Positions 2,972 through 16,405 of a stretch of DNA of 64,000 bases are shown here, in pieces (the first letter of the stretch is position 1; each line of letters begins with the position of its first letter). A model generated the notes under the pieces. The model was given only the letters and a program-made list of their open reading frames with translations. It was not told the DNA's origin and searched no databases. The DNA lies in contig NZ_JACHMI010000001.1 of assembly GCF_014207985.1 (NCBI RefSeq), positions 6,059,001-6,123,000 on the forward strand, given 5' to 3'. The DNA comes from Nonomuraea rubra (GTDB taxonomy: Bacteria; Actinomycetota; Actinomycetes; Streptosporangiales; Streptosporangiaceae). The position numbers and the translations under genes were made by a program.

Positions 2972-3464
2972 GACGATCCCTTCTCCGGCGCATGGGGGCG
3001 GTGATCGGTGGCCGCACAGGTACTCTTCGCTGAACCAGGCAGGGCTAAACGCCCGCTCAGGACGCCCGGCAGGTGACGTCACGCGCCGGCATCGTGCCGT
3101 CGGCCGGCCCACTCGTGGCGGATGGTGCCCGTGGTCCGCCGGACGCGGGAGGAGCATCCCTGGTGGAACGACCCGGTGGCGGATTCGCCGCTGGGGCGGA
3201 GCGGGCCAGGAACGTGATGGCCCACGCGGTGGTGGAGTTCTACAATCCCGCGCAGCTACGCGGCCTGCAGCGGCTGAACGTCCTCCACCAGCAGGAAGCG
3301 GACACCGGCGATCCGGCGGAACGATGAACCGGCCCGATCCGCGGCACCTGCCGCCGCAAGCCGAACAAGCAGCTCACCGTGCGCGTGTCCCGGCTGCCGC
3401 GAACGCGAGTGGTCAAACGGCCGGTTTCAGGTATCCGCCGGCCGTCAGGCCCGCGAAGGCGGCA
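2972..3464. other. 493-bp stretch without a clear gene
   Basis: This holds the promoter region of the SDR gene and a GTGACGTCAC palindrome at 3073-3082. An open frame runs from 3073 to 3327 on the + strand, but its translation resembles nothing I recognise and its first half looks non-coding. It directly precedes the Tn3 transposase remnant and may be debris from the same element. Confidence 0.4.
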
Positions 3465-3830
3465 TCGGCGTCGGTCAGCTGGGATGTGATCGGCCGCCAC
3501 TACGATCAGATGATCAAGTGCGCGACCGCGTTGCGGCTCAAGACCGCCGAGGCCCGCCAGATGCTGCGCCGCTTCACCCGCGGCTGCCCCGAGCATCCCA
3601 CCTACCAGGCCATCGAAGAGCTGGGCCGCGTGGTCCGTACGGTATTCATCTGCGAGTACCTCGCGGACGAGGCGCTGCGTCAGGATCCAGACCGTCGTGC
3701 GCGATGCGAAGTGGCGCAAGAGACTGACCCCGATCGTTCTGCGCGGCCTTTCCGTAACTGTTTGGACCCCACCTGAACCTGTACGGCAGGCTGGAACTGG
3801 ACCTGAATCTAGGCGGCGCCGAGCAACGGC
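3465..3830 (+). pseudogene. tnpA: Tn3-family transposase, C-terminal remnant
   Basis: The segment [20 protein letters not shown] and then [39 protein letters not shown] matches the C-terminal catalytic part of Tn3-family DDE transposases. The frame then jumps: the next recognisable piece, [13 protein letters not shown], comes about 60 residues later in the intact family, so there is an internal deletion. A further frameshift leads to [13 protein letters not shown] near 3772-3810, matching the family's extreme C-terminus (…NPYGRFxLDM…). Everything upstream of about residue 800 of a normal transposase is missing. Non-functional. It lies just ahead of the ABC exporter operon. Confidence 0.8.
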
Positions 3831-4913: not shown

Positions 4914-6817
4914 TCCGGATGAAGCTCGCGATGCTCCGGAACTCGATGACCGCAGGACACGCGGCAGAGATGACCCTGGGCGCCGTGCTCGGCCTGCTGA
5001 CCGCGTCGGGCACGATCATGGTGGCGGTGAACGACGCGGCCATCTCCGCCGATGTGCTCGCGGCCGTGTTCGCCGGGTGGGCGCTCGGCTGGGTCCTCGG
5101 CCCGCTGTTCGCCGGCGGCGAGAAGAACGACCTGCGGCCCGAACACCTCACCCGCGTTCCGATGACGTCCAGGACGATGGCGAGCGGCCTGTTCGGCGTG
5201 TCGTTGTTCAGCATCGGGGCCGCGGTCACGCTGCTCGCGCTGCTCGCCCTCGTCGTGTTCGGCGCCCGGCTCGGTCCCGGGCCGGCGCTGGTCGCGGTGG
5301 TTACGGTGCCGGCCATGCTCGCGACGCTGGTGCTCTGCTCACGGATCACGGTCGCGCTGGTCGGCGAGACGATGCGCTCCCGGCTCGGCGCGGCGATGAT
5401 CGCCATGCCGTGGGCGGTGATCGTGGCGTGCGCCTCGAACATCGGCATCCTGCTCGTCGTGCTCGGCCAGTCCCAGCTGCTGCGTGGCGGCTGGCCGGCC
5501 TGGCTGCCGATCACCCTGCGGGTGCTGCCCTCCGGCTGGGGCATCGCGGCCGTCGAGGCGTCGAGCCGATCCGACTGGCTGGTGGCGGGCGGCGCCCTGG
5601 TCGCGCTCATCGCGCTGGTCGGCGGCCTGCTGGCGTTGTGGTCGAGGCTGCTGCACCGCCGCATCACGGGTGCGCTTGGCGCGCCGGCCGTCCGGCCGAA
5701 GGCGTCCACCCGATCCCTGCTCGGACGGTTGCCCTCGACCAGGCTCGGCGCCGTCATCGGCAAGGAGCTGCGGACGTGGCCGAGGGACATGCTGCGGACC
5801 TACTTCTGGTTCTTCGCCCTGTGGTTCAGCATCGCCTACACCGCGCTGCCGCTGCTCGCGGGCGTCACGGCCTACCTGCCCTGGGCAGGCATCGCGCTGG
5901 TGGTCATCGCCGCGGCGTGCTCGGCGAACCTCTACAGCGCCGACGGCAGCGCGCTGTGGCTGACGCTGATGACCCCGGGCGTCGAGCGGGCGGACGTGCG
6001 GGGCCGCCAGACGGCGTGGCTGCTGGTCACCGTGCCGGTGGCCGTGGCGCTCACCGTGATCGGAGTCCTGATCAACGGGCAGAGCCGGCTCTGGCCGTGG
6101 ACACTCGGCATCCTCGCCAGCTCGATCGGGACCGGAGCCGGCCTGCTGGCGCTGCTGTCGGTCATGGTACCCATCCGGATGCCCGACGCCCACCGCCGCA
6201 GCGCGAACCCCGCCACCGACAGCGGCAACCTCACCGGGCTGGTCTGGACGATGATCGGCGCCTCGGTCGCGGCCGCGCTGCCCGTCGCCGCGCTCGTGCT
6301 CGTGGGCACGTTACGCGACGACCCGCTGCTGCGGTGGTCCGGTCTCCCCCTCGGCCTGGCCATCGGCGGACTGTGCATGTGGTTGTTCGGGCGGCTGGCC
6401 TACCGCAGGCTCGAGACGAACGGACCCGAACTGCTGGAGAAGCTGCGTGGCGGGAACCCGAACCTCCGCCCGCGGCCCGGGGAGCCCAAGGTCGTCCTGG
6501 TCGAGCCGCCAGGCGGGACCGGTATGCGCCTCACCGCCAGCCTGTGTCTCGGCGGCGGGTGGGTTCCGATGGCCTCCGGCGTGATCTCGTTGATCCTGAT
6601 CTCCCAAGGCGGTACCTCGCAGACGCTGTGGACCTTCGCGACGCGGCTGCCCGAGCCGCTGCCCGTTCCGGTCGCGATCCTGCTGATCGGGCTGAGCGTG
6701 CTCATCTACGCCACCGGCGTGCGCACCCTGCTGACGCTGCGCAGACGCCGGCGTGAACCGACGCGGATCCCGGCGTCCGGCGCACCAGCAGGACAGTTGC
6801 CGCGCCCGCGGTCATGA
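4898..6817 (+). CDS. ABC transporter membrane protein
   Basis: A 639-residue integral membrane protein beginning at GTG 4898 with AAGGA six bases upstream, inside the end of the ATPase gene. About twelve hydrophobic segments are visible, in two halves separated by a cytoplasmic stretch near residues 255-290 (RRITGALGAPAVRPKAST). The size and the partner ATPase fit a one-chain ABC-2 type exporter permease. It is the last gene of the three-ORF operon starting at 3955. Downstream lies a recombinase remnant, so the operon sits between decayed mobile-element pieces. Confidence 0.85.
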   Translation: MVGVLIRMKLAMLRNSMTAGHAAEMTLGAVLGLLTASGTIMVAVNDAAISADVLAAVFAGWALGWVLGPLFAGGEKNDLRPEHLTRVPMTSRTMASGLFGVSLFSIGAAVTLLALLALVVFGARLGPGPALVAVVTVPAMLATLVLCSRITVALVGETMRSRLGAAMIAMPWAVIVACASNIGILLVVLGQSQLLRGGWPAWLPITLRVLPSGWGIAAVEASSRSDWLVAGGALVALIALVGGLLALWSRLLHRRITGALGAPAVRPKASTRSLLGRLPSTRLGAVIGKELRTWPRDMLRTYFWFFALWFSIAYTALPLLAGVTAYLPWAGIALVVIAAACSANLYSADGSALWLTLMTPGVERADVRGRQTAWLLVTVPVAVALTVIGVLINGQSRLWPWTLGILASSIGTGAGLLALLSVMVPIRMPDAHRRSANPATDSGNLTGLVWTMIGASVAAALPVAALVLVGTLRDDPLLRWSGLPLGLAIGGLCMWLFGRLAYRRLETNGPELLEKLRGGNPNLRPRPGEPKVVLVEPPGGTGMRLTASLCLGGGWVPMASGVISLILISQGGTSQTLWTFATRLPEPLPVPVAILLIGLSVLIYATGVRTLLTLRRRRREPTRIPASGAPAGQLPRPRS

Positions 6818-6914
6818 AGGCGGGGGATGTGAACCGCAAGACCTTCATCCGCACTGAGCGGGGTGCCGCCGCCTCCATCCCCCGGCGGGCCTCGCCCAGC
6901 TCGGGCGCCCGTAG

Positions 6915-7146
6915 CGGTCCCCACGGTGGTGTACGCCGCCGGCAGGTTCTACGACATGACCGCCTGCGCGAGGGCCCTGCGGATCGCGGTGTGGCGGTGC
7001 CTGAGATCGCAGCCGAGCTGATCATCCCCACCGGCAAGAACAACGGCAGCAACCCCTCCGTGGCCAGCGTCTATCGCGCGCTGGCCGATACCGGCGCCAC
7101 CCCCGCGCATGACGACGATGGCCCGAACTCTGCCCTGCGCCGCTGA
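6915..7146 (+). pseudogene. serine recombinase (Tn3-type resolvase) C-terminal remnant
   Basis: VYAAGRFYDMTACARALR, then after a one-frame shift GVAVPEIAAELIIPTGKN and PSVASVYRALAD, match the C-terminal helix-turn-helix end of resolvase/invertase-type recombinases found beside actinobacterial Tn3 transposases. The catalytic N-terminal domain is missing and the frame is broken near 6985. Non-functional. With the transposase remnant at 3465 on the same strand, it suggests that the ABC exporter once lay inside, or was captured between, parts of a Tn3-type transposon. Confidence 0.7.
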
Positions 7147-7386
7147 AGTCGGTTACTGAGGGGGTTACTTTTCCTCTGGTGGCATCAACCCGGGCGCCGG
7201 GCCTCTACCGGCTCGTCACCGCCGGCGTTTCCGCCCGGCAGCTCCAGCAGGACCCACCGGCCCGTCCGTCTCACTCAGCTGTGTCCACGCGCCGGCCCCG
7301 GCCTCATCCATGAGCGCTTGCGCCGACATGATGGGGGGCCGCCCGGTAGCCGTGCAGGCGGAACGCCGGCCGACATGCGGTACATT

Positions 7387-7400
7387 GTTACCATGGTAAC
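7387..7400. promoter_or_regulatory. perfect 14-bp palindrome over a start codon
   Basis: GTTACCATGGTAAC is its own reverse complement and contains the ATG (7393) of the next gene. TACATT at 7381-7386 is a plausible -10 element seven bases before that ATG, which would give a leaderless transcript. A repressor bound here would block both RNA polymerase and translation. Palindrome seen directly; function inferred. Confidence 0.5.
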
Positions 7401-7635
7401 AGTGGAGCGTACTCAGACGGGCCTCCGGCTCGAGAAGAACGTGCTCAAGGTGCTCAAGGGACTGGCCGAGTACCTGGACATCTCGCTCGGTGACCTGGTG
7501 GAGGGCATCGCGCTGCACTCCTTCGACGGCAAGGCGCCGTTCACGCCCGAAACCCTGGTCAAGATCGAGCAGCTCAAGGCCGTGTACGGCCTGACGCTGA
7601 CCTCCGCCGACGCGCACCGGCTGACCGAGCGATGA
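7393..7635 (+). CDS. small protein resembling ribbon-helix-helix regulators
   Basis: An 80-residue protein (an in-frame ATG at 7375 is the alternative start). I do not recognise a named family, but residues 4-40 (TERT-like strand followed by GLRLEKNVLKVLKGLAEYLD and ISLGDLVEGIALHSF) have the strand-helix-helix pattern of CopG/Arc-type DNA-binding proteins. The ATG lies in a perfect palindrome and has no ribosome site, favouring leaderless translation. Its stop overlaps the start of the SRPBCC gene (ATGA), so the two are an operon. Autoregulation through the palindrome is a reasonable guess. Confidence 0.7.
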   Translation: MVTVERTQTGLRLEKNVLKVLKGLAEYLDISLGDLVEGIALHSFDGKAPFTPETLVKIEQLKAVYGLTLTSADAHRLTER

Positions 7636-8099
7636 GCGGCGCGCAGTACACCCTCACCGGAAGGCTGGCGGTCGCGCTGCCGCCCGAGGCGGCGTTCACG
7701 CTGTTCACGCCGCGCGGCGAGGAGCTCTGGGTGGCCGGATGGCGGCCCCGTTTCCCGATGGGGACCAGCGATGACTCCGCCCCCGGCACCGTCTTCGAGA
7801 CCGGCACGGACGACGAGCTGACCATCTGGGTGGTGGCCGCGCGCGAGCCTGGACGGCGCGTCTCGTACGCCAGGGTGACGCCCGGTTCCCGGGCCGGGAC
7901 CGTCACGGTCGAGGTGGACGCGGACGGGCAGGGCGGCAGCACCGTACGGGTCACCTACGAACTGACCGCACTCACGCCGCAGAGCCAGGGACCTCTGCGC
8001 GAGTTCGCCGGGAGCTATCGGGACTTCCTGCGGTCGTGGGAGGTGGACATCGCCCGCCATCTCGGGTCCCCGCCGCCGGCCCCGACCGTCCGGACGTAA
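7632..8099 (+). CDS. SRPBCC (START-like) domain protein
   Basis: A 155-residue protein with the pattern of polyketide cyclase/START-like ligand-binding folds: an N-terminal beta strand (YTLTGRLAVALPPEAAFTLF), the WVAGWRPRFP turn, alternating strands, and a long C-terminal helix (LREFAGSYRDFLRSWEVDIARHL). It is translationally coupled to the preceding small protein through an ATGA overlap. Such proteins bind hydrophobic small molecules in a cavity; the ligand here is unknown. Confidence 0.8.
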   Translation: MSGAQYTLTGRLAVALPPEAAFTLFTPRGEELWVAGWRPRFPMGTSDDSAPGTVFETGTDDELTIWVVAAREPGRRVSYARVTPGSRAGTVTVEVDADGQGGSTVRVTYELTALTPQSQGPLREFAGSYRDFLRSWEVDIARHLGSPPPAPTVRT

Positions 8100-8112
8100 A
8101 CGTGGACTCAGG

Positions 8113-8479
8113 TCATCCGGTGCCGCCGGGAGAGACCAGGCCGGTCTCGTAGGCGAGCACCACCGCCTGGACACGGTCGCGCAGGCCGAGCTTGGACGGG
8201 ATGCCGGCGACGTGGGTCTTCACCGTGGCCACGCTGAGCGACAACTGCCCGGCGAGTTCGGCGTTGCTCAGGCCGGTGGGCCGGCAGGCGCAGCACGTCC
8301 AGCTCGCGAGGCGTCCGGCCCGGCAGGCCGCGATGCAGGGCGGGCTTCAGGTCGTCGCGGCGGGCGACGCGCTCGACCGGGCGGCGGGTGATGGTCGGCG
8401 CGAGCAGGGCGTCGCCGGAGCGCACCCGGCGCCGCGTGTGCCGCCGGTGTCGGTCACCTCGATCTCCAGCCACTCGCCG
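8113..8479 (-). pseudogene. two-component locus remnant: kinase fragment fused to LuxR-type regulator end
   Basis: Read on the minus strand from 8479, the sequence gives GEWLEIEVTDTGG, the strand and G-box region of a DesK-type kinase ATPase domain. It then passes by deletion into SGDALLAPTITRRPVERVAR, the receiver/linker end of a NarL-type response regulator, and the regulator helix-turn-helix [13 protein letters not shown] frameshift near 8285 precedes [20 protein letters not shown], followed by a normal C-terminus. The upstream half of the kinase is at 14055-14175, on the other side of the inserted element. The kinase C-terminus and the receiver domain are lost, so the locus is dead. Confidence 0.8.
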
Positions 8480-8516
8480 GGGCTCGACGAGCAACGGAAC
8501 GAAAGTCTCGGTTTCC
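8480..8516 (+). repeat. left terminal inverted repeat of the cassette
   Basis: Begins GGGCTCGACGAGCAACGGAA and continues CGAAAGTCTCGGTTTCC. It is preceded directly by the 7-bp target duplicate CTCGCCG (8473-8479). Compared with the right end it lacks one A in the A-run and has T for C near its inner limit. Confidence 0.9.
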
Positions 8517-8641
8517 AAGGTTTCTGAGGGCTGAACCCGAGACTGGTCTATCCGATCACGGCAGACCCGCAACGCTCGCCCACACAACCGACTTTTCAAG
8601 ATCGCGAAGATGGCCGAAGTCGAGCTCGGATTGCGGCCTGA

Positions 8642-8671
8642 GTTAAAGGTGGGTTAAGCAAATCTGGTTAG
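8642..8671. promoter_or_regulatory. GTTAA direct repeats, candidate OmpR-type regulator site
   Basis: GTTAA occurs at 8642 and 8653, exactly 11 bp apart, with a related GTTAG at 8667, just upstream of the six-gene cassette operon. OmpR/PhoB-type response regulators bind 11-bp-spaced direct repeats, and the operon encodes such a regulator. This is the best candidate autoregulatory promoter region. Spacing seen; binding inferred. Confidence 0.45.
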
Positions 8672-8686
8672 CTTCTTTTAAGCCCC

Positions 8687-8707
8687 TGACCTGCATGCTG
8701 CAGGTCA
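8687..8707. promoter_or_regulatory. 9-bp-arm inverted repeat at the lipoprotein start
   Basis: TGACCTGCA (8687-8695) and TGCAGGTCA (8699-8707) form a perfect dyad with a 3-nt spacer, directly ahead of the lipoprotein start at 8716. It could be an operator, or an mRNA hairpin that hides the ribosome site. Confidence 0.45.
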
Positions 8708-8715
8708 TGGCGAAC

Positions 8716-9165
8716 ATGAAGAGTGCCCTGAAGATCGCAGCCTTCCTCGCTACCTCAGTCGTCCTCGCCTCTTGTGGCGGCGGCTCCGGGGGGCAGGGAG
8801 ATTCCGGTGATCAGGCGAAGTACGCGGCGTGCCTACGGGATCAGGGTCTCACCGTCACGGAGCGGAGCGACGGGCTGGACATCAAGGCGGACTCCCCGGA
8901 GAAGAGCAACGCGGCCAAGGCGGCCTGTAAGCAGTACGCCCCGGCCGGTGAGGAGGTGTCGCCCGAGGACAAGAAGAAGGCGATGGACACCGCGCTCAAG
9001 TACGTCGAGTGCATGCGCAAGGCGGGAGTCGACATGCCGGACCCGAAGCAGGATCCCGACGGCGGTGTCGCTCTGAAGCTGCCGGACGGGATGACCGAGG
9101 ACACGCCGGTGGTTCAGCAGGCGCAGAAGGCGTGCCAGGAGCTCTCTCCTGGGAACTCCGAGTGA
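8716..9165 (+). CDS. small secreted lipoprotein of the efflux cassette
   Basis: The chosen start, ATG 8716, gives MKSALKIAAFLATSVVLASC, a 20-residue lipoprotein signal ending in the lipobox LASC (ATGs at 8695 and 8707 are alternatives). The mature part is about 130 residues, acidic and soluble, with conserved-looking cysteines in the pattern YAACLRDQG…AACKQYAP…YVECMRKAG…ACQEL, probably two disulfides. Similar lipoproteins often precede adaptor/MacB-type ABC operons in actinomycetes. It would sit on the outer face of the membrane. Its GTGA overlap with the adaptor gene shows coupling. Role unknown, perhaps ligand sensing or chaperoning. Confidence 0.8.
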   Translation: MKSALKIAAFLATSVVLASCGGGSGGQGDSGDQAKYAACLRDQGLTVTERSDGLDIKADSPEKSNAAKAACKQYAPAGEEVSPEDKKKAMDTALKYVECMRKAGVDMPDPKQDPDGGVALKLPDGMTEDTPVVQQAQKACQELSPGNSE

Positions 9166-10202
9166 GGCGCACGGCGGTGCTGCTGAGCGGCGTAGCGGTG
9201 ATCGGAAGCGGGGCTGTGGTGGGGTTCATGAACCTCCCCGGTCGTACGGCAGCGCCGGCAGCGAGCCCCAACGGTGCACAGGCGTCGTCTGTGCCGATCA
9301 CCCGTTCCGACATGGTGGACACCAAGCAGGTCAGCGGCACCCTCGGATATGCGGGCCGCCGCAGCCAGCCGAACCGGGCCGGCGGGGTGGTCACGGCCAC
9401 CCGCGCCGAGGGAACGGTGGTGCGCCGTGGCGGCTGGCTGTACAAGGTGGCGGGCAAGCCGGTGTTCCTGATGTATGGCGCCGTCCCGATGTATCGCCGC
9501 CTTGGTGTCGGCACCACGGGTCCGGATGTCCGTCAGCTGGAGCTGAACCTGGTCAAGCTGGGATACAAGCCCGGCACGGTCGACAAGACCTTTACCGCGG
9601 TGACCGCCCGGGCGGTGTGGGCCTGGCAGCGCGATGAAGGGCTGGTGGCGACGGGCAGGGCGGAGGTAAGCCAAGTGATCTTCTCGGGGGGTTCGCTTCG
9701 GATCGCGGAGAACTCCAAGCAGGCTGGGGATGCCGCTGAAGGTTCGGTGGTGACAACGACCGGGACGGAACGAGCTATCACCATCAAATTGGAGACCTCC
9801 CACCAGCAATTCGCCCGTAAGGGCGCCAGGGTGAAGGTACAGCTGCCCGACGGCAAGAAGGTCGCTGGAACGATCTCCTCTGTCGGAACCGTCGCACGGC
9901 CCGGGAAGGATGCGGACAGTCCGGCGACGATCGAGGTCAGGGTCAAGGTCGGCGGCGAACTGGGCAGACTTGATCAGGCGCCGGTCACGGTCGAGCTACG
10001 AACCGGGCGCCGCAAGGACGTGCTGTCGGTGCCGGTCGAGGCACTGATCGCGCGGGCAGGCGGCCAGTACGGCGTGCGGGTGGTGCAAGGCGGGGCACGC
10101 CGGGTGGTGCCGGTCGAGACGGGCCTGTTCATGGGAAGCCGCGTGGAGATCTCCGGTGCTGGCTTGTCGGAGGGCGTGAGAGTCGAGGTGCCCGCGCTAT
10201 GA
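9162..10202 (+). CDS. membrane-fusion-type adaptor with peptidoglycan-binding domain
   Basis: A 346-residue protein that starts at GTG 9162, overlapping the lipoprotein stop. Residues 1-22 are a membrane anchor (VRRTAVLLSGVAVIGSGAVVG). Around residues 115-170 is a PG_binding_1-like domain (LGVGTTGPDVRQLELNLVKLG…TARAVWAWQRDEGL). The rest (ITIKLETSHQQFARKGARVKV, and VLSVPVEALIARAGGQYGVRVV near the C-terminus) matches the barrel of HlyD/RND-type adaptors. In Gram-positive cells such adaptors link a MacB-type ABC pump to the cell wall. It overlaps the ATPase gene by 4 bp. Confidence 0.87.
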   Translation: MRRTAVLLSGVAVIGSGAVVGFMNLPGRTAAPAASPNGAQASSVPITRSDMVDTKQVSGTLGYAGRRSQPNRAGGVVTATRAEGTVVRRGGWLYKVAGKPVFLMYGAVPMYRRLGVGTTGPDVRQLELNLVKLGYKPGTVDKTFTAVTARAVWAWQRDEGLVATGRAEVSQVIFSGGSLRIAENSKQAGDAAEGSVVTTTGTERAITIKLETSHQQFARKGARVKVQLPDGKKVAGTISSVGTVARPGKDADSPATIEVRVKVGGELGRLDQAPVTVELRTGRRKDVLSVPVEALIARAGGQYGVRVVQGGARRVVPVETGLFMGSRVEISGAGLSEGVRVEVPAL

Positions 10203-10900
10203 CCGTCGTCGTCGAGCTGAGCAGGGTGACCAAGGAGTTTCCCGGTGGCGTTCAGGCGCTGCGAGGAGTGGATCTGCGCGTGGATAGCGGAGAGCTGGTC
10301 GCCATGGTCGGCCCTTCCGGGTCGGGCAAATCGACCCTGCTCAACATGATCGGAACTTTGGACCGGCCAACGCGAGGTCAGGTGCGCATCGCGGGCTACG
10401 ACGTGGCGCAGCTGAACGATCGCGAGCTGTCGGCGCTGCGCGCCCAGCACATCGGATTCGTCTTCCAGCAGTTCCATCTCGCGGAGGGAGTTTCCGCTCT
10501 CGACAACGTCGCTGACGGTTTGCTGTATGCCGGAGTGGGGCGGCGTGAACGTCGGCGGCGGGCGGGTGAGGCATTGGAGCGTGTCGGTCTGGCGGATCGG
10601 CTGGAGCACCGGTCGAATCAGATGTCGGGCGGGGAGCGGCAGCGGGTCGCCGTGGCGCGCGCCGTGGTCGGTGAGCCGTCGCTGGTGTTGGCCGATGAGC
10701 CGACCGGCAACCTTGACACCGCTTCGGGGGCAGAGGTTCTCGCGACGTTGCGGAATCTGAACGCGGCCGGCGCCACCGTGGTGATCATCACGCACGACCT
10801 GGAGGTCGCGGCCGCCGCGCCCCGCAGGATCCACATCCGTGATGGCCTGGTCGTCGCGGATGAGGTCTCCGAGGTCGGCGAGATGGGAGCTCTCCGATGA
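10199..10900 (+). CDS. MacB/LolD-type ABC ATPase
   Basis: A 233-residue ATPase. Walker A GPSGSGKST is near residue 40, the Q-loop region FVFQQFHLAEGVSALDNV near 92, the signature MSGGERQRVAVARA near 140, Walker B LVLADEPTGNLD near 160 and the H-loop IITHD near 195. The LDxxTG motif is typical of the MacB/FtsE class, which drives mechanotransmission pumps instead of moving substrate through the membrane. It overlaps both its neighbours by 4 bp, as expected for an obligate operon. Confidence 0.95.
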   Translation: MTVVVELSRVTKEFPGGVQALRGVDLRVDSGELVAMVGPSGSGKSTLLNMIGTLDRPTRGQVRIAGYDVAQLNDRELSALRAQHIGFVFQQFHLAEGVSALDNVADGLLYAGVGRRERRRRAGEALERVGLADRLEHRSNQMSGGERQRVAVARAVVGEPSLVLADEPTGNLDTASGAEVLATLRNLNAAGATVVIITHDLEVAAAAPRRIHIRDGLVVADEVSEVGEMGALR

Positions 10901-12099
10901 CGGATCGGATCGGCAAAGCACGGCTGACCCCTGCCCGGATGAACCTGGAGGATGTGGCGCGAGTGGGTGTGGCGGGGCTGCGGGCCCGGCCCACGCGGGC
11001 CGTGCTGTCCGCGTTGGGGATCGCCATCGGCATCGCGACCATGGTGGCGGTGCTGGGCATCTCCTCCTCCAGCCAGGCTCGCGTGATGGAGACCCTGGAC
11101 GCGTTGGGGACGAACATGTTGACCGTCGCCCCCGGCAAGCAGTTCTCCGCGCAGAAGGCCAGGCTGCCGAAGAACGCGGGCCGGATGATCCGGGGCGTGG
11201 AGCATGTCGCCATGGCCGGCCAGACCGGTGACACCGGAAAAGCCATCTACCGCAACGATCGCATCCCTTCCACACGCACCGGCGGCCTTCAGGTCCGCGC
11301 CACCTCCCTGGATCTGCTGGAGGTCCTGCAGACCCCGGTCCGCAGCGGAAGGTGGCACGATGTGGCCACCGCGGCGCAACGCACCGTGGTGCTGGGATCC
11401 ACGGCCGCCACACGGCTGGCCGCCACCGCCGGAGACGCGGTCTGGATCAACGGCCAGTGGTGGACGGTGATCGGGGTCCTGGCCGAATCGCCACTGGCAG
11501 AGGACGTCGACGTGGCCGCGCTGGTCGGTTTCGCCGCGGCGGATACCTTCCTCGGTTTCGATGGACACCCGACCTTGGTCTATACGAAGATCGCTGAGGA
11601 GAAGGTCACAGAGGTCAGGGCGCTGCTGAATCACGCGGCGAACCCCGAGCATCCGGAGGAGGTCACGGTCAGCCGCCCCTCCGACGCCCTGGCGGCGAAG
11701 GCCGCGGTGGCGGGGGCGTTCACCAGCCTGTTGCTCGGTGTCGGTGGCGTGGCCCTGCTGGTGGGCGGGGTCGGCATCGCCAACACGATGATCATCTCGG
11801 TGCTGGAGCGGCGGCGTGAGATCGGCCTGCGTCGCGCGCTCGGGGCCACCACCGGCCAGGTTCGCGTCCAGTTTCTCGCCGAATCCCTGATTCTGGCCGG
11901 TGTGGGCGGGCTCACCGGCTCGGTGCTAGGAGTGGTCGCCACCATCGGGTTCGCGCTGACGCAAGGGTTGCCGCCGGTCGTGCCGGCGTGGGTGATCGGC
12001 GGCGGGCTCGGCGCCACGCTCGTCGTCGGCACCATCGCCGGGCTCTACCCGGCGATGCGGGCCGCTCGGATGTCGCCGACGCTGGCCCTGTCCGCCTGA
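10897..12099 (+). CDS. MacB/FtsX-type ABC permease
   Basis: A 400-residue permease with the MacB layout: a first membrane helix (LSALGIAIGIATMVAVLGIS), a large extracytoplasmic domain (residues about 60-265), and three C-terminal helices within residues about 270-385, with the family motif ANTMIISVLERRREIGLRRALGAT between them. It pairs with the preceding ATPase. Together with the adaptor and lipoprotein this forms a tripartite-like pump acting at the cell wall, of the kind linked to export of, or resistance to, peptides and lipid-like antibiotics (family knowledge; substrate here unknown). Confidence 0.93.
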   Translation: MTDRIGKARLTPARMNLEDVARVGVAGLRARPTRAVLSALGIAIGIATMVAVLGISSSSQARVMETLDALGTNMLTVAPGKQFSAQKARLPKNAGRMIRGVEHVAMAGQTGDTGKAIYRNDRIPSTRTGGLQVRATSLDLLEVLQTPVRSGRWHDVATAAQRTVVLGSTAATRLAATAGDAVWINGQWWTVIGVLAESPLAEDVDVAALVGFAAADTFLGFDGHPTLVYTKIAEEKVTEVRALLNHAANPEHPEEVTVSRPSDALAAKAAVAGAFTSLLLGVGGVALLVGGVGIANTMIISVLERRREIGLRRALGATTGQVRVQFLAESLILAGVGGLTGSVLGVVATIGFALTQGLPPVVPAWVIGGGLGATLVVGTIAGLYPAMRAARMSPTLALSA

Positions 12100-12136
12100 G
12101 ACGTACCATGATGACCGACAGCTGGGAGCAGCGAAC

Positions 12137-12826
12137 ATGCGCGTGCTGGTTGCCGAGGATGAGAAAGGCTTGGCCGACATCATCGGCACCGGGCTGCGCA
12201 AGGCCCGGATGGCGGTGGACGTCGTCTATGACGGGGACGCGGCTCTGGAACGGGCGATGACCCATGAATACGACGTGATCGTGCTCGATCGGGACTTACC
12301 CGAGATCCACGGTGACGACGTCTGCCGGAGGCTGATGGAGGCGCAGGTCCCGGCACGGATCATCATGCTCACCGCCGCGGGTGACCTGTGGTCGAAGGTG
12401 GAGGGGCTGGGCCTGGGATCTGATGATTACCTGGCCAAGCCCTTCGACTTTCCCGAGCTCGTCGCCCGGATCCGGGCCCTGGCCCGGCGGGTGCCGACCC
12501 GGCTCCAGCCGGTTCTGGAGATGGCGGGCATCACCCTGGACCCGGCCTACCACGAGGTGCATCGTAACGGGCGTTATGTGGCTCTGAGCCCCAAGGAGTT
12601 CACGGTGCTGGAGGTCTTCATGCGGTCGGGGGGAAGTGTGGTCAGTGTCGAGGATCTCCTGGAGAAGGCATGGGACGAGAACGTCGACTACTTCACCAAC
12701 TCCGTGCGGGTAACGGTGGCGACGCTGCGCAAGAAGCTGGGACCGCCACCGGTGATTCACACCGTGATCGGAGCGGGCTACCGTCTCGTCGACCCTGGCC
12801 ACGGAGCACCGTCAGGGTCCGGCTGA
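12137..12826 (+). CDS. OmpR-family response regulator of the cassette
   Basis: A 229-residue regulator. The receiver domain has the acidic pocket EDE (7-9), phosphoacceptor Asp51 in VLDRDLP, and Lys in LAKPFDFPEL. The C-terminal winged helix (residues about 128-220) has the pattern LSPKEFTVLEVFM…VRVTVATLRKKLG…IGAGYRL. It closely resembles the regulator at 43256-43918, so these are paralogous systems. Its stop overlaps the proposed kinase start. It probably controls its own operon through the 11-bp repeats at 8642. Confidence 0.93.
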   Translation: MRVLVAEDEKGLADIIGTGLRKARMAVDVVYDGDAALERAMTHEYDVIVLDRDLPEIHGDDVCRRLMEAQVPARIIMLTAAGDLWSKVEGLGLGSDDYLAKPFDFPELVARIRALARRVPTRLQPVLEMAGITLDPAYHEVHRNGRYVALSPKEFTVLEVFMRSGGSVVSVEDLLEKAWDENVDYFTNSVRVTVATLRKKLGPPPVIHTVIGAGYRLVDPGHGAPSGSG

Positions 12827-13950
12827 CCGCGCTCTATGCCAGCCCGTTCCTCATCATGGCCGTGGTCATGCTTCTCGCGGTGAACCTGCTGCTCAGCAGC
12901 GCGCTTGGGGTGAGCGTCTCCGTCTCGGGGCGAGCACCTCAGCCCACGGCCGCCGGGGCGCCGACCCGGGGCGAAGTCGACGAGGAAGCGGTGTTCGAAG
13001 GCGACCTTCAGCTGCAGTATGAGGTCCTGAGATATCAATGGGCCGCCACCGCGATCATTATCGCTGTCCTGACGGTGGTCTCGGTGATCCTGGGCTGGTG
13101 GCTAGCCGGGCGCGTCCTGCGCCCGATTCGCGGCGTCACCTCCACGGCCCGCCGACTGTCCCTGTCCAACCTCCATGAACGGATCGCGATGCAGGGCCCC
13201 GACGATGAGCTCAAGGAGCTCGCCGACACCTTCGATGACATGCTCGACCGGCTGGAGCGCTCGACCGATGCTCAGCGGCGATTCGCCGCCAACGCCTCCC
13301 ATGAGCTCAAGACACCCTTGGCGCTGGACCGGGCGCTGCTGCAGGTGGCGTTCGGCGAACTCCCCGAGGAACTGTTGGAGGCCCGGGATGAACTCCTCGC
13401 CTCCAACAGCCGCCAACATCGGCTCATCGACGGACTCCTGATGCTGGCTGCGGCAGAACACACGCTGACCAGCGTAGAGCCCGTCGATCTGGCCGACCTG
13501 GCCCGGCGTGTCATCTACGGGCACCCCGGCGCGACGGTGGACCTGTCACCGGCCCTCACCTCCGGCGATCCCGTTCTGGTCGAGCGGTTGATCGCGAATC
13601 TCGTGGAGAACGCCGAGAAGTACAACGACCAGCGTAGGTTCATCGCCGTCCGGACCGGAACGGGCAATGAAGGCGCGGTCCTCACCGTGGAGAACACCGG
13701 GCAGGAGATCGCCCACGAGGTGGTGTCATCGCTGTTCGAGCCGTTCCGGCGCCTCACCGGCGACCGTACCGAGTCGGTGTCCGGCGCGGGCCTCGGCCTG
13801 TCGATCGTGGCCGCCATCACACGCGTCCACGGAGGCACGATCGACGCCGTCCCCCGCGTCGGCGGCGGCCTCGCCGTGACGGTACGCCTCCCGGACATGG
13901 GGTCAGTGGTGAAAGCGCAGCCAAGGCTCTCAACGGGCGGGCGGAGGTAA
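12823..13950 (+). CDS. sensor histidine kinase of the cassette
   Basis: A kinase of about 375 residues with a two-helix sensor: helix one near residues 5-28, a short extracellular loop (about 45 residues), helix two near 72-95, HAMP (97-150), the HisKA His in ASHELKTP (His160), N-box LVENAEKYN, and G-boxes ending GAGLGLSIVAAI. Start uncertain: coding-like sequence begins before the first in-frame ATG (12856) but no ATG/GTG/TTG occurs between 12670 and 12856. CTG 12823 overlaps the regulator stop as CTGA, mimicking ATGA coupling, and is preferred here; ATG 12670, deep inside the regulator gene, is the alternative. The short loop suggests sensing within the membrane. Confidence 0.88.
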   Translation: MTALYASPFLIMAVVMLLAVNLLLSSALGVSVSVSGRAPQPTAAGAPTRGEVDEEAVFEGDLQLQYEVLRYQWAATAIIIAVLTVVSVILGWWLAGRVLRPIRGVTSTARRLSLSNLHERIAMQGPDDELKELADTFDDMLDRLERSTDAQRRFAANASHELKTPLALDRALLQVAFGELPEELLEARDELLASNSRQHRLIDGLLMLAAAEHTLTSVEPVDLADLARRVIYGHPGATVDLSPALTSGDPVLVERLIANLVENAEKYNDQRRFIAVRTGTGNEGAVLTVENTGQEIAHEVVSSLFEPFRRLTGDRTESVSGAGLGLSIVAAITRVHGGTIDAVPRVGGGLAVTVRLPDMGSVVKAQPRLSTGGRR

Positions 13951-14016
13951 AGCAACGCAGCGACTCCACCCATGTGATCAGTGGCCGTGCGGAGCCTGAA
14001 TCGGCTCGAGCTGGCC

Positions 14017-14054
14017 GGGAACCGAGACTTTTCGTTCCGTTGCTCGTCGAGCCC
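14017..14054 (-). repeat. right terminal inverted repeat of the cassette
   Basis: Read on the minus strand from 14054 it gives GGGCTCGACGAGCAACGGAA, then CGAAAAGTCTCGGTTCCC, matching the left end. The second copy of the 7-bp target duplicate CTCGCCG follows at 14055-14061. Confidence 0.9.
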
Positions 14055-14175
14055 CTCGCCGTCCTGGCCGATCGTCACGGTCGCGGCGGCCCCGGGCGCG
14101 TGCTTGATCGTGTTGGTGAGGGCTTCCTGTACGACGCGGTGGGCGGCGAGGTCGAGCCCGCCGGACGGCCCCGTC
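14055..14175 (-). pseudogene. DesK-type kinase remnant interrupted by the cassette
   Basis: The minus strand gives GGLDLAAHRVVQEALTNTIK then HAPGAAATVTIGQDGE, the dimerisation-to-N-box region of a NarL-partner kinase. At 14055-14061 it meets the 7-bp target duplicate and the cassette end. The continuation WLEIEVTDTGG is at 8479 downward. Sequence before about 14175 is lost, so only some 40 residues survive on this side. Confidence 0.85.
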
Positions 14176-14239
14176 GAGGCGGCCACCGCCCGCGCCGGCC
14201 AGCAGGCCCATGACATGCGTAAAGGATCAGGTCGCAGCC

Positions 14240-14623
14240 TCAGGGGGTCGTCGCGGCCCGCTCGGCCTCACTGCGCAGGACACAGAACTCGTTACCCTCG
14301 GGGTCGGCGAGAACGGCCCAGCCCGCGCCATCGGTGTTGCGGCGGTCGGCGACGAAGGTGGCGCCCAGCCCCAGCAGGCGGCCGACCTCCTCATCCCGCG
14401 AGGTCTCCGGACGCAGGCACAGGTGGAACCGGTTCTTGACCGTCTTGGGCTCCGGCACCTGGTTGAAGTGCAGCAGCGGTCCCTGCGGAAGCAGGACCTG
14501 CGTCTCGTCATCCCCGGGCCTGTCCTCGGGATGCATGGGGCAACCGGTGACCTCGCTCCAGAACCGGGCGAGCTCGTAGGCGTTCGCACAGTCGATCGCC
14601 ACGTTCTGCACTACCGAAACCAT
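14240..14623 (-). CDS. VOC-family (glyoxalase-like) protein
   Basis: A 127-residue vicinal-oxygen-chelate fold protein. ATG 14623 is preceded by AGGGGGT. It has the two beta-alpha-beta halves: NVAIDCANAYELARFWSEVTG…LHFNQVPEPKTVKNRFHLCL and then EVGRLLGLGATFVADRR…WAVLADPEGNEFCVL. This subgroup (glyoxalase-like/antibiotic-resistance-like) is common in actinomycetes with mostly unknown substrates. It lies just right of the disrupted kinase and is not part of the cassette. Confidence 0.85.
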   Translation of the reverse strand: MVSVVQNVAIDCANAYELARFWSEVTGCPMHPEDRPGDDETQVLLPQGPLLHFNQVPEPKTVKNRFHLCLRPETSRDEEVGRLLGLGATFVADRRNTDGAGWAVLADPEGNEFCVLRSEAERAATTP

Positions 14624-14681
14624 GCGGGCAACGACCCCCTTCCATCTCATCGTGCTGATCGTCTGGTCCGGCGACACCCGC

Positions 14682-15212
14682 TCACAGGCGGCGTTGCAGG
14701 AGCATGCCTGGCCACTCCCCCACGGTGAAGGGGGCGACGCGGGTGAAGCCGCAGCTTTCGTAGTAGGCCACCAGGCGGCCGTCGTGGCCGGCGTAGCAGT
14801 CGACGCGCAGCAGGCGCACGCCGCGGCGGGCGGCTTCGTCGGCGGCCCAGCCGAGCAGGGCGCGGCCGATGCCGTGGCCGGCGTGGCGGCGGCCGGTGAC
14901 CAGGGCCTGCACGTAGAGCTCCGGTTCGGCCGCCGGGGTGACGTAGTCGTGGGCGGGGCCGACGCAGATGCAGCCGGCGGGCTCGCCGTCGTGCTCGGCG
15001 ATGCGCATGCCGCCGCCGGCCAGCCAGGAGGTGACCTGCTCGGTGCGCTTGGCGTCGCCGGTGAAGGGCCGGGTGCCCCACTGGCCGGTACGGCCCTGGG
15101 CGGTGAGCCAGGTGACGGCCGAGTCGAACATGGCCAGGACGGCGGGCACGTCCTCCTCCCGGGCCGGCCGGATGGTGACGGGCCGGGCAGGGGTGGCGGG
15201 GCCGCGGGTCAC
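14682..15212 (-). CDS. GNAT-family N-acetyltransferase
   Basis: A 176-residue acetyltransferase starting at GTG 15212, whose GTGA overlaps the stop of the L,D-transpeptidase gene. The N-terminal VTIRPAREEDVPAVLAMF opening, the acetyl-CoA loop GRRHAGHGIGRALLGWAADEAARRG and the closing YYESCGFTRV segment are typical. Coupling with a cell-wall crosslinking enzyme may be incidental or may reflect modification of a wall or toxin substrate (inference). Substrate unknown. Confidence 0.9.
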   Translation of the reverse strand: MTRGPATPARPVTIRPAREEDVPAVLAMFDSAVTWLTAQGRTGQWGTRPFTGDAKRTEQVTSWLAGGGMRIAEHDGEPAGCICVGPAHDYVTPAAEPELYVQALVTGRRHAGHGIGRALLGWAADEAARRGVRLLRVDCYAGHDGRLVAYYESCGFTRVAPFTVGEWPGMLLQRRL

Positions 15213-16405
15213 GACTTGCTGCTCTTGTTCAGGGCGCTGCCCTTCTTCCACTGGGAGAACGACATCTGCCAGTATCCCCAGCCGTTGTTCCACTCCAGCT
15301 CCCGGTCGGTGCCGGTGATGTCGACGACGTCGCCGCGCTGCACGTTGTCGTAGAACCACTTGGCCTGGTCGGGGCGGGCGTTGATGCAGCCGTGGCTGAC
15401 GTTGCGCACGCCCTGCGCCCAGACGTTGTTCTTGGCGTGGACGTACTCGCCGGAGTTGGAGATGCGCACGGCGTGGTCGATCATGACGTCGTAGTAGCCG
15501 GGGTCGCCCTTCTTGCGGCCCGGGGAGATCATGCGGACCGGGCTGCCACGTTCCATGGTGAGGTGGACGCCCGAGGTGGTGGTGTATTCGCGGGTGGTGG
15601 CCATGCCGGCGCTGATGCGCATGGTCTGGACGCGCTTGCCGTCCTTGTAGACGTACATCATCTTCTTGCGCGTGTCGATCTTGCTGATCTGCTTGGCGCC
15701 GATCTTGAGGTTGGCGGTGTAGTCCTTGACCCCGTACAGGCCCTTGCCGCCCTTGATGCCGGTGATGTTGGCGTTGAAGGTGACCTTCTGGTGGGCCGGC
15801 CAGTACTTGGCGGTGCGGTAGATGACGACGGTGTCGTTGATCCAGCGCCAGGCGCCCTCGACGGGCTTTTCCGCCTCGATCTCCAGGGCGCGCTCGATGG
15901 TCGCCTTGCTGGTGACGGGCTGGTTGAAGGTGACGATGATGGGGGCGCCGACGCCGAGGGTCTCGCCCTTGGCGTTGGGGGTGACGTCGGCGACCTGCAG
16001 CGCGCGTTCGGGCTTGGCGGTGGTGAACGTGCTGGTGGCGGTGGTGACGCCGGCGGTGGCCGAGACGTTGTAGCTGGTGGACGGCTTCAGCGCGGTCCTG
16101 GAGATCCAGCGGGTCTTGTCGGCGTTGAACTTGCCTTCGAGCTGCTCGCCGTCGGCTTCGACGGTGACGTTGTCGAGCGGGGCGCCGGCGGCGGCCACGA
16201 CGACCTTCTTCTCGGGGCTGACCTTGCTCGCGCCCTCGTCAGGGGTGATCTTGACGGTGGGGGCCTGGGGGGTGGCACTGGTGCTCGGCTGGGAGGCGTC
16301 CGGTGGCTGCGCGGCCGGGGCGCTGGAGCATGAGGCCGTCAGCGCCGCCGCCGCGAGCAGCGCGAACGCGGTGGCGGATCTCCTCCGAACGGGCGCAACG
16401 TTCAA
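15209..16405 (-). CDS. lipoprotein L,D-transpeptidase (Ig-like domains plus YkuD)
   Basis: A 398-residue cell-wall enzyme. The start is TTG 16405 with GAGAGGA ahead. The signal ends in a lipobox ALTASC (Cys about 26), followed by a Ser/Thr/Pro-rich linker, two Ig-like modules (about 50-250) and the YkuD catalytic domain with His and Cys in VSHGCINARP (Cys about 340). Ldt enzymes make 3-3 crosslinks in peptidoglycan and resist most beta-lactams. The architecture matches the LdtMt2-like class of actinobacteria. A C-terminal Trp/Asn-rich tail is also typical. Expected anchored on the outer face of the membrane. Confidence 0.93.
   Translation of the reverse strand: MNVAPVRRRSATAFALLAAAALTASCSSAPAAQPPDASQPSTSATPQAPTVKITPDEGASKVSPEKKVVVAAAGAPLDNVTVEADGEQLEGKFNADKTRWISRTALKPSTSYNVSATAGVTTATSTFTTAKPERALQVADVTPNAKGETLGVGAPIIVTFNQPVTSKATIERALEIEAEKPVEGAWRWINDTVVIYRTAKYWPAHQKVTFNANITGIKGGKGLYGVKDYTANLKIGAKQISKIDTRKKMMYVYKDGKRVQTMRISAGMATTREYTTTSGVHLTMERGSPVRMISPGRKKGDPGYYDVMIDHAVRISNSGEYVHAKNNVWAQGVRNVSHGCINARPDQAKWFYDNVQRGDVVDITGTDRELEWNNGWGYWQMSFSQWKKGSALNKSSKS

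Follow-up and report, generated by a model that had tools for sequence, protein, structure and literature searches.

How does a complete efflux operon, together with a two-component system, come to lie inside the remains of a host kinase gene? This question is raised by a 64-kb stretch of Nonomuraea rubra DNA (contig NZ_JACHMI010000001.1, positions 6,059,001 to 6,123,000; hereafter, the window), part of a genome of 12.9 Mb, in which inverted repeats enclose a block of 5,577 bp, from 8479 to 14055. A first-pass annotation had proposed that a transposase-free mobile cassette carries a whole efflux and two-component module here, between 8480 and 14054. Our analysis upholds this proposal: the block has Tn3 ends and six genes, none of them for transposition. 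The block itself is real, but its limits lie one base further out on each side. We assign a probability of about 90% to the reading that 8479-14055 is a Tn3-family mobile insertion cassette, i.e., a pair of transposon ends around an efflux and two-component operon, with neither transposase nor resolvase. Labels beginning with G and L denote the genomes and loci compared.

Terminal repeats, target duplication and interrupted locus

The tips of the two repeats (8479-8504 and 14030-14055) are complementary at 26 of 26 positions; the block opens at 8479 with GGGGCTCGACGAGCAACGGAACGAAA, of which the end at 14055 is the exact complement. The inverted repeats, first put at about 37 bp, stand and reach about 38 bp, but their pairing is not seamless: relative to the right repeat (14017-14055, reverse strand), the left one (8479-8516, forward strand), likewise of Tn3-family type, has a 1-nt deletion and one mismatch, its A-run being 1 nt shorter than that of the right repeat and of a copy in genome G050 described below. 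The remainder of a transposon-derived left end follows at 8517-8561 (forward strand); it is G050-like to about element position 70-85, and its inner limit is approximate. The element is flanked by a target-site duplication, TCGCC, at 8474-8478 and 14056-14060. The perfect 7-bp duplication reported initially, CTCGCCG, is indeed present at 8473-8479 and 14055-14061, but its extra C on the left equals the element's last base and its extra G on the right equals the first; the tips of the element, GGGG...CCCC, leave a duplication of 5 bp, as in the Tn3 family. A 7-bp duplication made by another insertion-sequence family was considered and dropped, because such tips give 5 bp and the G050 copy also has 5 bp.

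We took the window repeat to be similar to that of Tn3, and then tested it by end searches in relatives. The marks of the family are present, namely terminal repeats of about 38 bp, with a GGGG start and a GGAACGAAAA-type core, and a 5-bp duplication, TCGCC in the window and GGCTC in G050. The tnpA gene of an autonomous Tn3 element is absent from the window element; neither tnpA nor tnpR gave a match in window positions 7001-16000, or among the Pfam families of the six cargo proteins. That is, passenger genes lie between Tn3 repeats without a transposition enzyme, which is the organization of a Tn3-type mobile insertion cassette. Rfam gave nothing at gathering scores in 8400-14200.

Joining the flanks without the element yields a continuous reading frame (VTIGQDGE+WLEIEVTDTGG), as had been described for a DesK kinase, but the host kinase is only a remnant. 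On the left (8108-8478, reverse strand) lie the remnant of a LuxR-type response regulator and a piece of the kinase, and on the right (14061-14216, reverse strand) a remnant of the kinase ATPase domain, both with approximate outer limits. Relative to G029 (L108), the window lacks about 490 bp between regulator and kinase, as well as about 110 bp within the kinase and its 5′ part. Because L108 has about 490 bp more between these parts, the regulator/kinase pair of the window is a deletion remnant. A search with the joined flanks in 54 genomes of the genus yielded 14 high-scoring relative loci (L108-L121), which were compared with the synteny around them unchecked. Empty sites, a check named in the first-pass annotation, were found among them: 13 of the 14 align across the junction free of any insert, and L120 stops short of it. 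G008 and G017 are among the 13 uninterrupted loci, though both carry the cassette elsewhere.

Cassette copies and related ends in other genomes

Copies of the cassette were sought in 148 genomes, its own included, and then in the host's order, where 287 of 345 genomes were scored and 58 were not. Six of the 287 (own included) contain the core at no less than 93% identity, with one such copy in each. The five other copies are 93-95% identical to the window; four are in the same genus (G008, G017, G020 and G050) and one is in another (G077), and the next-best core match by score is 73% identical. The G050 copy is complete: it measures 5,630 bp, has both ends, and lies at another site with its own duplication, GGCTC. 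Because near-identical copies are found at other places in relatives, the cassette has moved as a unit; its insertion as such at least twice, in the window and in G050, at different sites and each with a 5-bp duplication, is supported. In G017 and G020 just the right end is present; G077 and G008 are without either end, G008 retaining a short right-subterminal piece. No flank of more than 100 bp is common to the copies in the stretches compared, nor between them and window 1-30000, the right flank of G017 being only about 440 bp; by eye, a short stretch upstream of the cassette is similar in G017 and G077.

Identities of the core were compared with those of a RecD-like gene, which in the window is 92.2% identical to Nonomuraea gerenzanensis, in line with a Nonomuraea-like host. 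Between genera, the core is far more similar than this gene (97.2 versus 78.2% for G050-G077, and 93.6 versus 79.0% for G000-G077), which shows that the cassette has moved horizontally between genera. The corresponding values are 99.5 versus 94.9% for G050-G017, 94.8 versus 90.5% for G000-G050, and 93.3 versus 91.1% for G000-G008, a close pair. The yardstick is thin, being a single gene, but the excess seen between genera is large. The further suggestion that such movement explains how these operons multiply in actinomycetes is not borne out: the near-identical cassette was found in six of the scored genomes, one copy each, and the four diverged homologous operons checked (G039, G285, G148 and G085) have no such end on the same contig, among the matches listed. 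Diverged relatives of the operon give some match, in many cases partial, in 146 of the 148 genomes (own included).

The distribution of the ends was assessed in 341 genomes of the host's family. The window end, as a pattern with up to 3 mismatches in 27 positions, matched in 13 of these genomes, its own included; a second pattern, the consensus of the relatives' ends, again with up to 3 mismatches, matched in 72. The reversed-pattern control gave zero among the matches listed in both searches. We then counted facing end pairs within 20 kb, including the window although the pattern misses its left end. Left out of this census were 93-bp double ends (G012:C113 and G323:C45 69056/69106), outward-facing pairs (G160 near 5.73 Mb and G278 157284/172354), and spans above 20 kb. 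Of the resulting 14 pairs, 10 show a perfect duplication of 5 bp and 10 enclose a Tn3 transposase gene (tnpA), so that a transposase bounded by the same ends, for which the first-pass annotation had suggested looking, does exist in relatives. The perfect duplications are TCGCC (window), GGCTC (L046), GATAC (L066 and L122), GACAG (L067), TTTAC (L071), TCAAC (L124), GATCC (L125), ATGTA (L128) and GACAA (L129); the imperfect ones agree at 4 of 5 positions in L068, at 3 of 5 in L126 and L127, and at 1 of 5 in L123. As a control, 5 of 156 mismatched pairings also agree (13 pairs, L129 left out), and GATAC and GGCTC are each seen at more than one site.

The gene for the transposase (PF01526) lies inside L066, L068, L071, L122 and L124-L129, and is fragmented in some of them, e.g., L122 and L125. 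These ten autonomous-type relatives have terminal repeats of the same type as the cassette; seven have a perfect 5-bp duplication, and eight show a 93-bp double end. All ten contain tnpA and seven have a resolvase match, whereas the cassette has neither. One of them, L128 (G211:C225, 537-18520), is an 18-kb Tn3 element with a perfect duplication and about 13 kb of cargo. No transposase is found inside the window element, L046, L067 or L123. L067 (G334:C379, 1938-3075), of 1,138 bp, combines related ends and the duplication GACAG with a methyltransferase-like gene; it is a second transposase-free cassette, with other cargo between ends of the same kind, such as the first-pass annotation had suggested looking for. 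L123 (G041:C611, 1046-1270) is a 225-bp pair of related ends, without a transposase or a 5-bp duplication, and is possibly a decayed miniature element.

Searches were also made beyond these pairs. Sixteen loci at other Tn3 transposases of relatives, selected out of a longer list and some of them contig-truncated, have no such end, one matching with 17 of 39 mismatches, and the exact 23-nt end pattern is absent from viral contigs. Among plasmids, 311 records match the element partially, none over 80% of it. The 39-nt end was matched in three Rhodococcus plasmid records (four places), the best place covering 59-77% of the query; two of these matches were inspected (L075 and L076) and rejected, as 11 of 34 positions of the full end are mismatched there. 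Three matches to the exact 20-nt end in a genome-contig collection were discarded as chance-like, since each differs from the full end at 14 of 39 positions.

Origin, mobilization and alternative explanations

The left end of the G050 copy contains the motif GTAACGGTTTGATC, 126 nt from the tip and without mismatches. Six of the nine tnpA elements tested (L129 left out), namely L066, L068, L071, L122, L125 and L126, also have the motif in their tnpA-side end, with 1-2 mismatches and at 131-134 nt from the tip, as does the end of L074; it is in none of the nine distal ends of the tested elements. When the ends were randomised by simple base shuffling, about 0.01% came within 2 mismatches of it. 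In addition, the G050 left end has an inward-facing repeat 93 bp from its tip, with 11 of 39 mismatches; such a repeat is also present in L067, and a weaker one can be made out by eye after the motif-bearing ends of both L071 and L074. Whichever the side, the left end is an end of this Tn3 transposon type. The motif points to a derivation of the G050 left end from a tnpA-proximal end, with the middle of the transposon lost, but the signs conflict. Because the G050 left end keeps the motif of tnpA-proximal ends, we infer that the cassette goes back to an autonomous transposon, the interior of which gave way to the efflux operon.

A Tn3 transposase from another element would then have acted on the ends of the cassette, and the cointegrate would have been resolved by recombination or by a foreign resolvase. 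The replicative route is usual for the Tn3 family. Mobilization in trans by a related transposase is suggested by two insertions without tnpA; no partner was found in the cassette's own genome. In this genome PF01526 is matched six times, at four loci. At the fullest locus, separate pieces align at 39-54% identity with the transposase of the subgroup that shares the cassette's ends (query L068), and the fragment in the window and two other loci have no match to that query at 1e-5. Of five transposase loci compared in G050, four are 24-44% identical to the subgroup transposase and one has no match. The window copy is probably now stranded in its genome, because its left repeat has lost one base and no cognate transposase was found. 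The transposase fragment of the window (3459-3686, PF01526) belongs to another Tn3 transposase and lies 4.8 kb left of the cassette. An open frame at 6814-7146 is a possible recombinase remnant beside the cassette; compared by eye, its terminal part, IIPTGK...SVYRAL, looks similar to a resolvase-like protein in L049. A candidate end in the own genome, at C1:370026 (22-nt end pattern, 3 mismatches), was rejected, as the full end has no match there at up to 14 of 39 mismatches (L003).

Several observations weigh against this interpretation or against parts of it. The nearest tnpA-flanking ends differ from the right end of the window element at 2-3 of 27 positions. Four of the six copies are without one or both ends, and therefore those four are no evidence of end-to-end transposition. 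The motif GTAACGGTTTGATC is missing from its usual place in three of the nine tnpA-side ends (L124, L127 and L128), and also from the window's own left end, while the 93-bp inward repeat is tnpA-distal in eight tnpA elements (L066, L068, L071, L124 and L126-L129). Among the PF01526 matches compared, no cognate transposase was found in the own genome. Lastly, the search for further ends in the host genome, which had been proposed at the outset, returned none in this assembly with gapless patterns, which miss ends with indels, including the window's left end.

Foremost among the alternatives is a decayed autonomous transposon, in which the operon was a passenger next to tnpA, a gene that each lineage then lost by a deletion of its own. 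The left junctions differ, at core position ~84 in the window and ~150 in G050, as separate left-end deletions would leave, and G050 retains more of the transposon end. However, tnpA was found in none of the six copies, and the complete one in G050, likewise lacking tnpA, is flanked by a separate duplication. We regard this account as doubtful, if deserving of serious weight.

It is quite unlikely that one-ended transposition made some of the copies, namely G017 and G020, whose sole transposon end is the right one and which have a left edge, CCCGCAACGC, in common. This edge, near core position 84, is shared with G077 and the window, with different sequence directly upstream (L044 at ~14063, L045 at ~9442, L047 at ~8231, window at ~8562), and PMC4133298 mentions that Tn3-family elements can undergo one-ended transposition. 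According to the same text, though, it gives random, not fixed, far ends; also, the 5 bp to the right of the end do not recur at the left edge, being found in G017 only at least 114 bp upstream and in G020 not within 400 bp. Further upstream of the edge, L044 (G017) and L047 (G077) are similar by eye.

A TIME-COMP, in which each end would be a separate miniature Tn3-derived element (TIME) with the operon mobilised between, is highly unlikely. The inward repeat-like stretch 93 bp from the tip of the G050 left end is what a tiny miniature element would have, but the 93-bp double end at the tnpA-distal end of eight tnpA transposons makes it normal end anatomy; moreover, the scans detect just one repeat on the right side of the cassette, and a TIME at each end is not what is found. 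As described in PMC4133298 and PMC13367494, TIMEs and TIME-COMPs share Tn3-type repeats, 5-bp duplications and the lack of a transposase with the cassette; TIMEs are miniature, at 262 bp (PMC4133298), and TIME-COMPs have one at each end, whereas here single ends enclose 5.6 kb. Finally, chance repeats around an operon inherited vertically at the window locus can practically be dismissed: diverged operon relatives are common, as this would predict, but the target loci are uninterrupted in relatives, the six copies have no flanks in common in the stretches compared, the ends are common to tnpA transposons, core identity exceeds that of the RecD-like gene, and the second complete copy in G050, with its own 5-bp duplication, makes chance very unlikely.

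The cargo operon and its significance

The six genes of the cassette are all on the forward strand. A small lipoprotein-like gene (8695-9165), with a lipobox, LASC, by eye and no Pfam or NCBIfam family, is followed by an adaptor-like protein (9162-10202) with a peptidoglycan-binding domain, PF01471 (PG_binding_1), and weak RND_mfp similarity, below the cut-off; a MacB/LolD-like ATP-binding cassette (ABC) ATPase (10199-10900); a MacB-like FtsX permease (10897-12099) with PF12704 (MacB_PCD) and PF02687, matching MacB in PDB 5lil with an E-value of 7.5e-28; an OmpR-type response regulator (12137-12826); and a HAMP-HisKA-HATPase sensor kinase (12814-13950, start codon approximate). Genes overlap by 4 bases at three of the five junctions (9162, 10199 and 10897), with a GTG start at 9162, and the gap between permease and regulator is 37 bp. 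In its adaptor, ABC ATPase and MacB/FtsX permease the operon is like MacB-type efflux systems, and the best-scoring models for regulator and kinase, VanR-O (the top NCBIfam model of the regulator) and VanS-O, recall VanRS-like regulation. It differs from them in that its scores are far below the NCBIfam cut-offs, and in the peptidoglycan-binding domain of its adaptor.

Ratios of nonsynonymous to synonymous substitution (dN/dS) were computed between the window and the five copies over the aligned parts, with no stops in the scored alignments. They are 0.18-0.21 for the adaptor, 0.15-0.23 for the ATPase, 0.15-0.24 for the permease (four copies, the G077 permease being unscored owing to a 1-nt gap), 0.06-0.08 for the regulator, 0.26-0.35 for the kinase, and 0.44-0.65 for the lipoprotein. 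These values show purifying selection on five of the six cargo genes, i.e., all except the lipoprotein gene. Ahead of the operon, a direct repeat, GTTAA-N6-GTTAA (8642-8657, forward strand), is a candidate response-regulator box. It is the sole exact site on either strand of the window, and it is exact in five of the six cassette copies, G008 being without it. Among seven loci of diverged homologues, four have one-mismatch versions (L020, L021, L105 and L106), their position relative to the operon being unassessed, and three have none. The operon may be autoregulated via this box.

Transposase-free cassettes with Tn3 repeats are a known kind, the mobile insertion cassettes, and the window element belongs there. 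According to PMC6304161, those of Xanthomonas likewise have passenger genes enclosed by long Tn3-family repeats and no transposition enzymes, and a cognate transposase in trans is thought to be needed for movement. Compared with that description, the host here is an actinomycete, the passengers are the six genes of an efflux operon that includes a two-component system, and the end type was matched in 72 of the 341 family genomes, no other family having been searched with this pattern. Among the literature matches listed, no actinomycete example of such cassettes was recognised.

As an unlikely extension of the cassette reading, one Tn3 subgroup that is widespread in a single actinomycete family might provide transposase in trans to a range of cassettes, each with a single adaptive gene or an operon, such as the efflux/two-component operon here and the methyltransferase-like gene of L067, and some copies (G017 and G020) may have moved from one end only, with a fixed edge at core position 84. 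If true, regulated operons for envelope defence could pass in this way across species and genera without transposition genes of their own. Read as a mobile insertion cassette, the window element is a clean natural case of a whole efflux operon that, with its own sensor and regulator, has travelled between actinomycete species and genera as a single unit that has no transposase. As nothing inside it codes for transposition, annotation keyed on transposition genes would miss it, and the ends found here provide a search key for further such cassettes.

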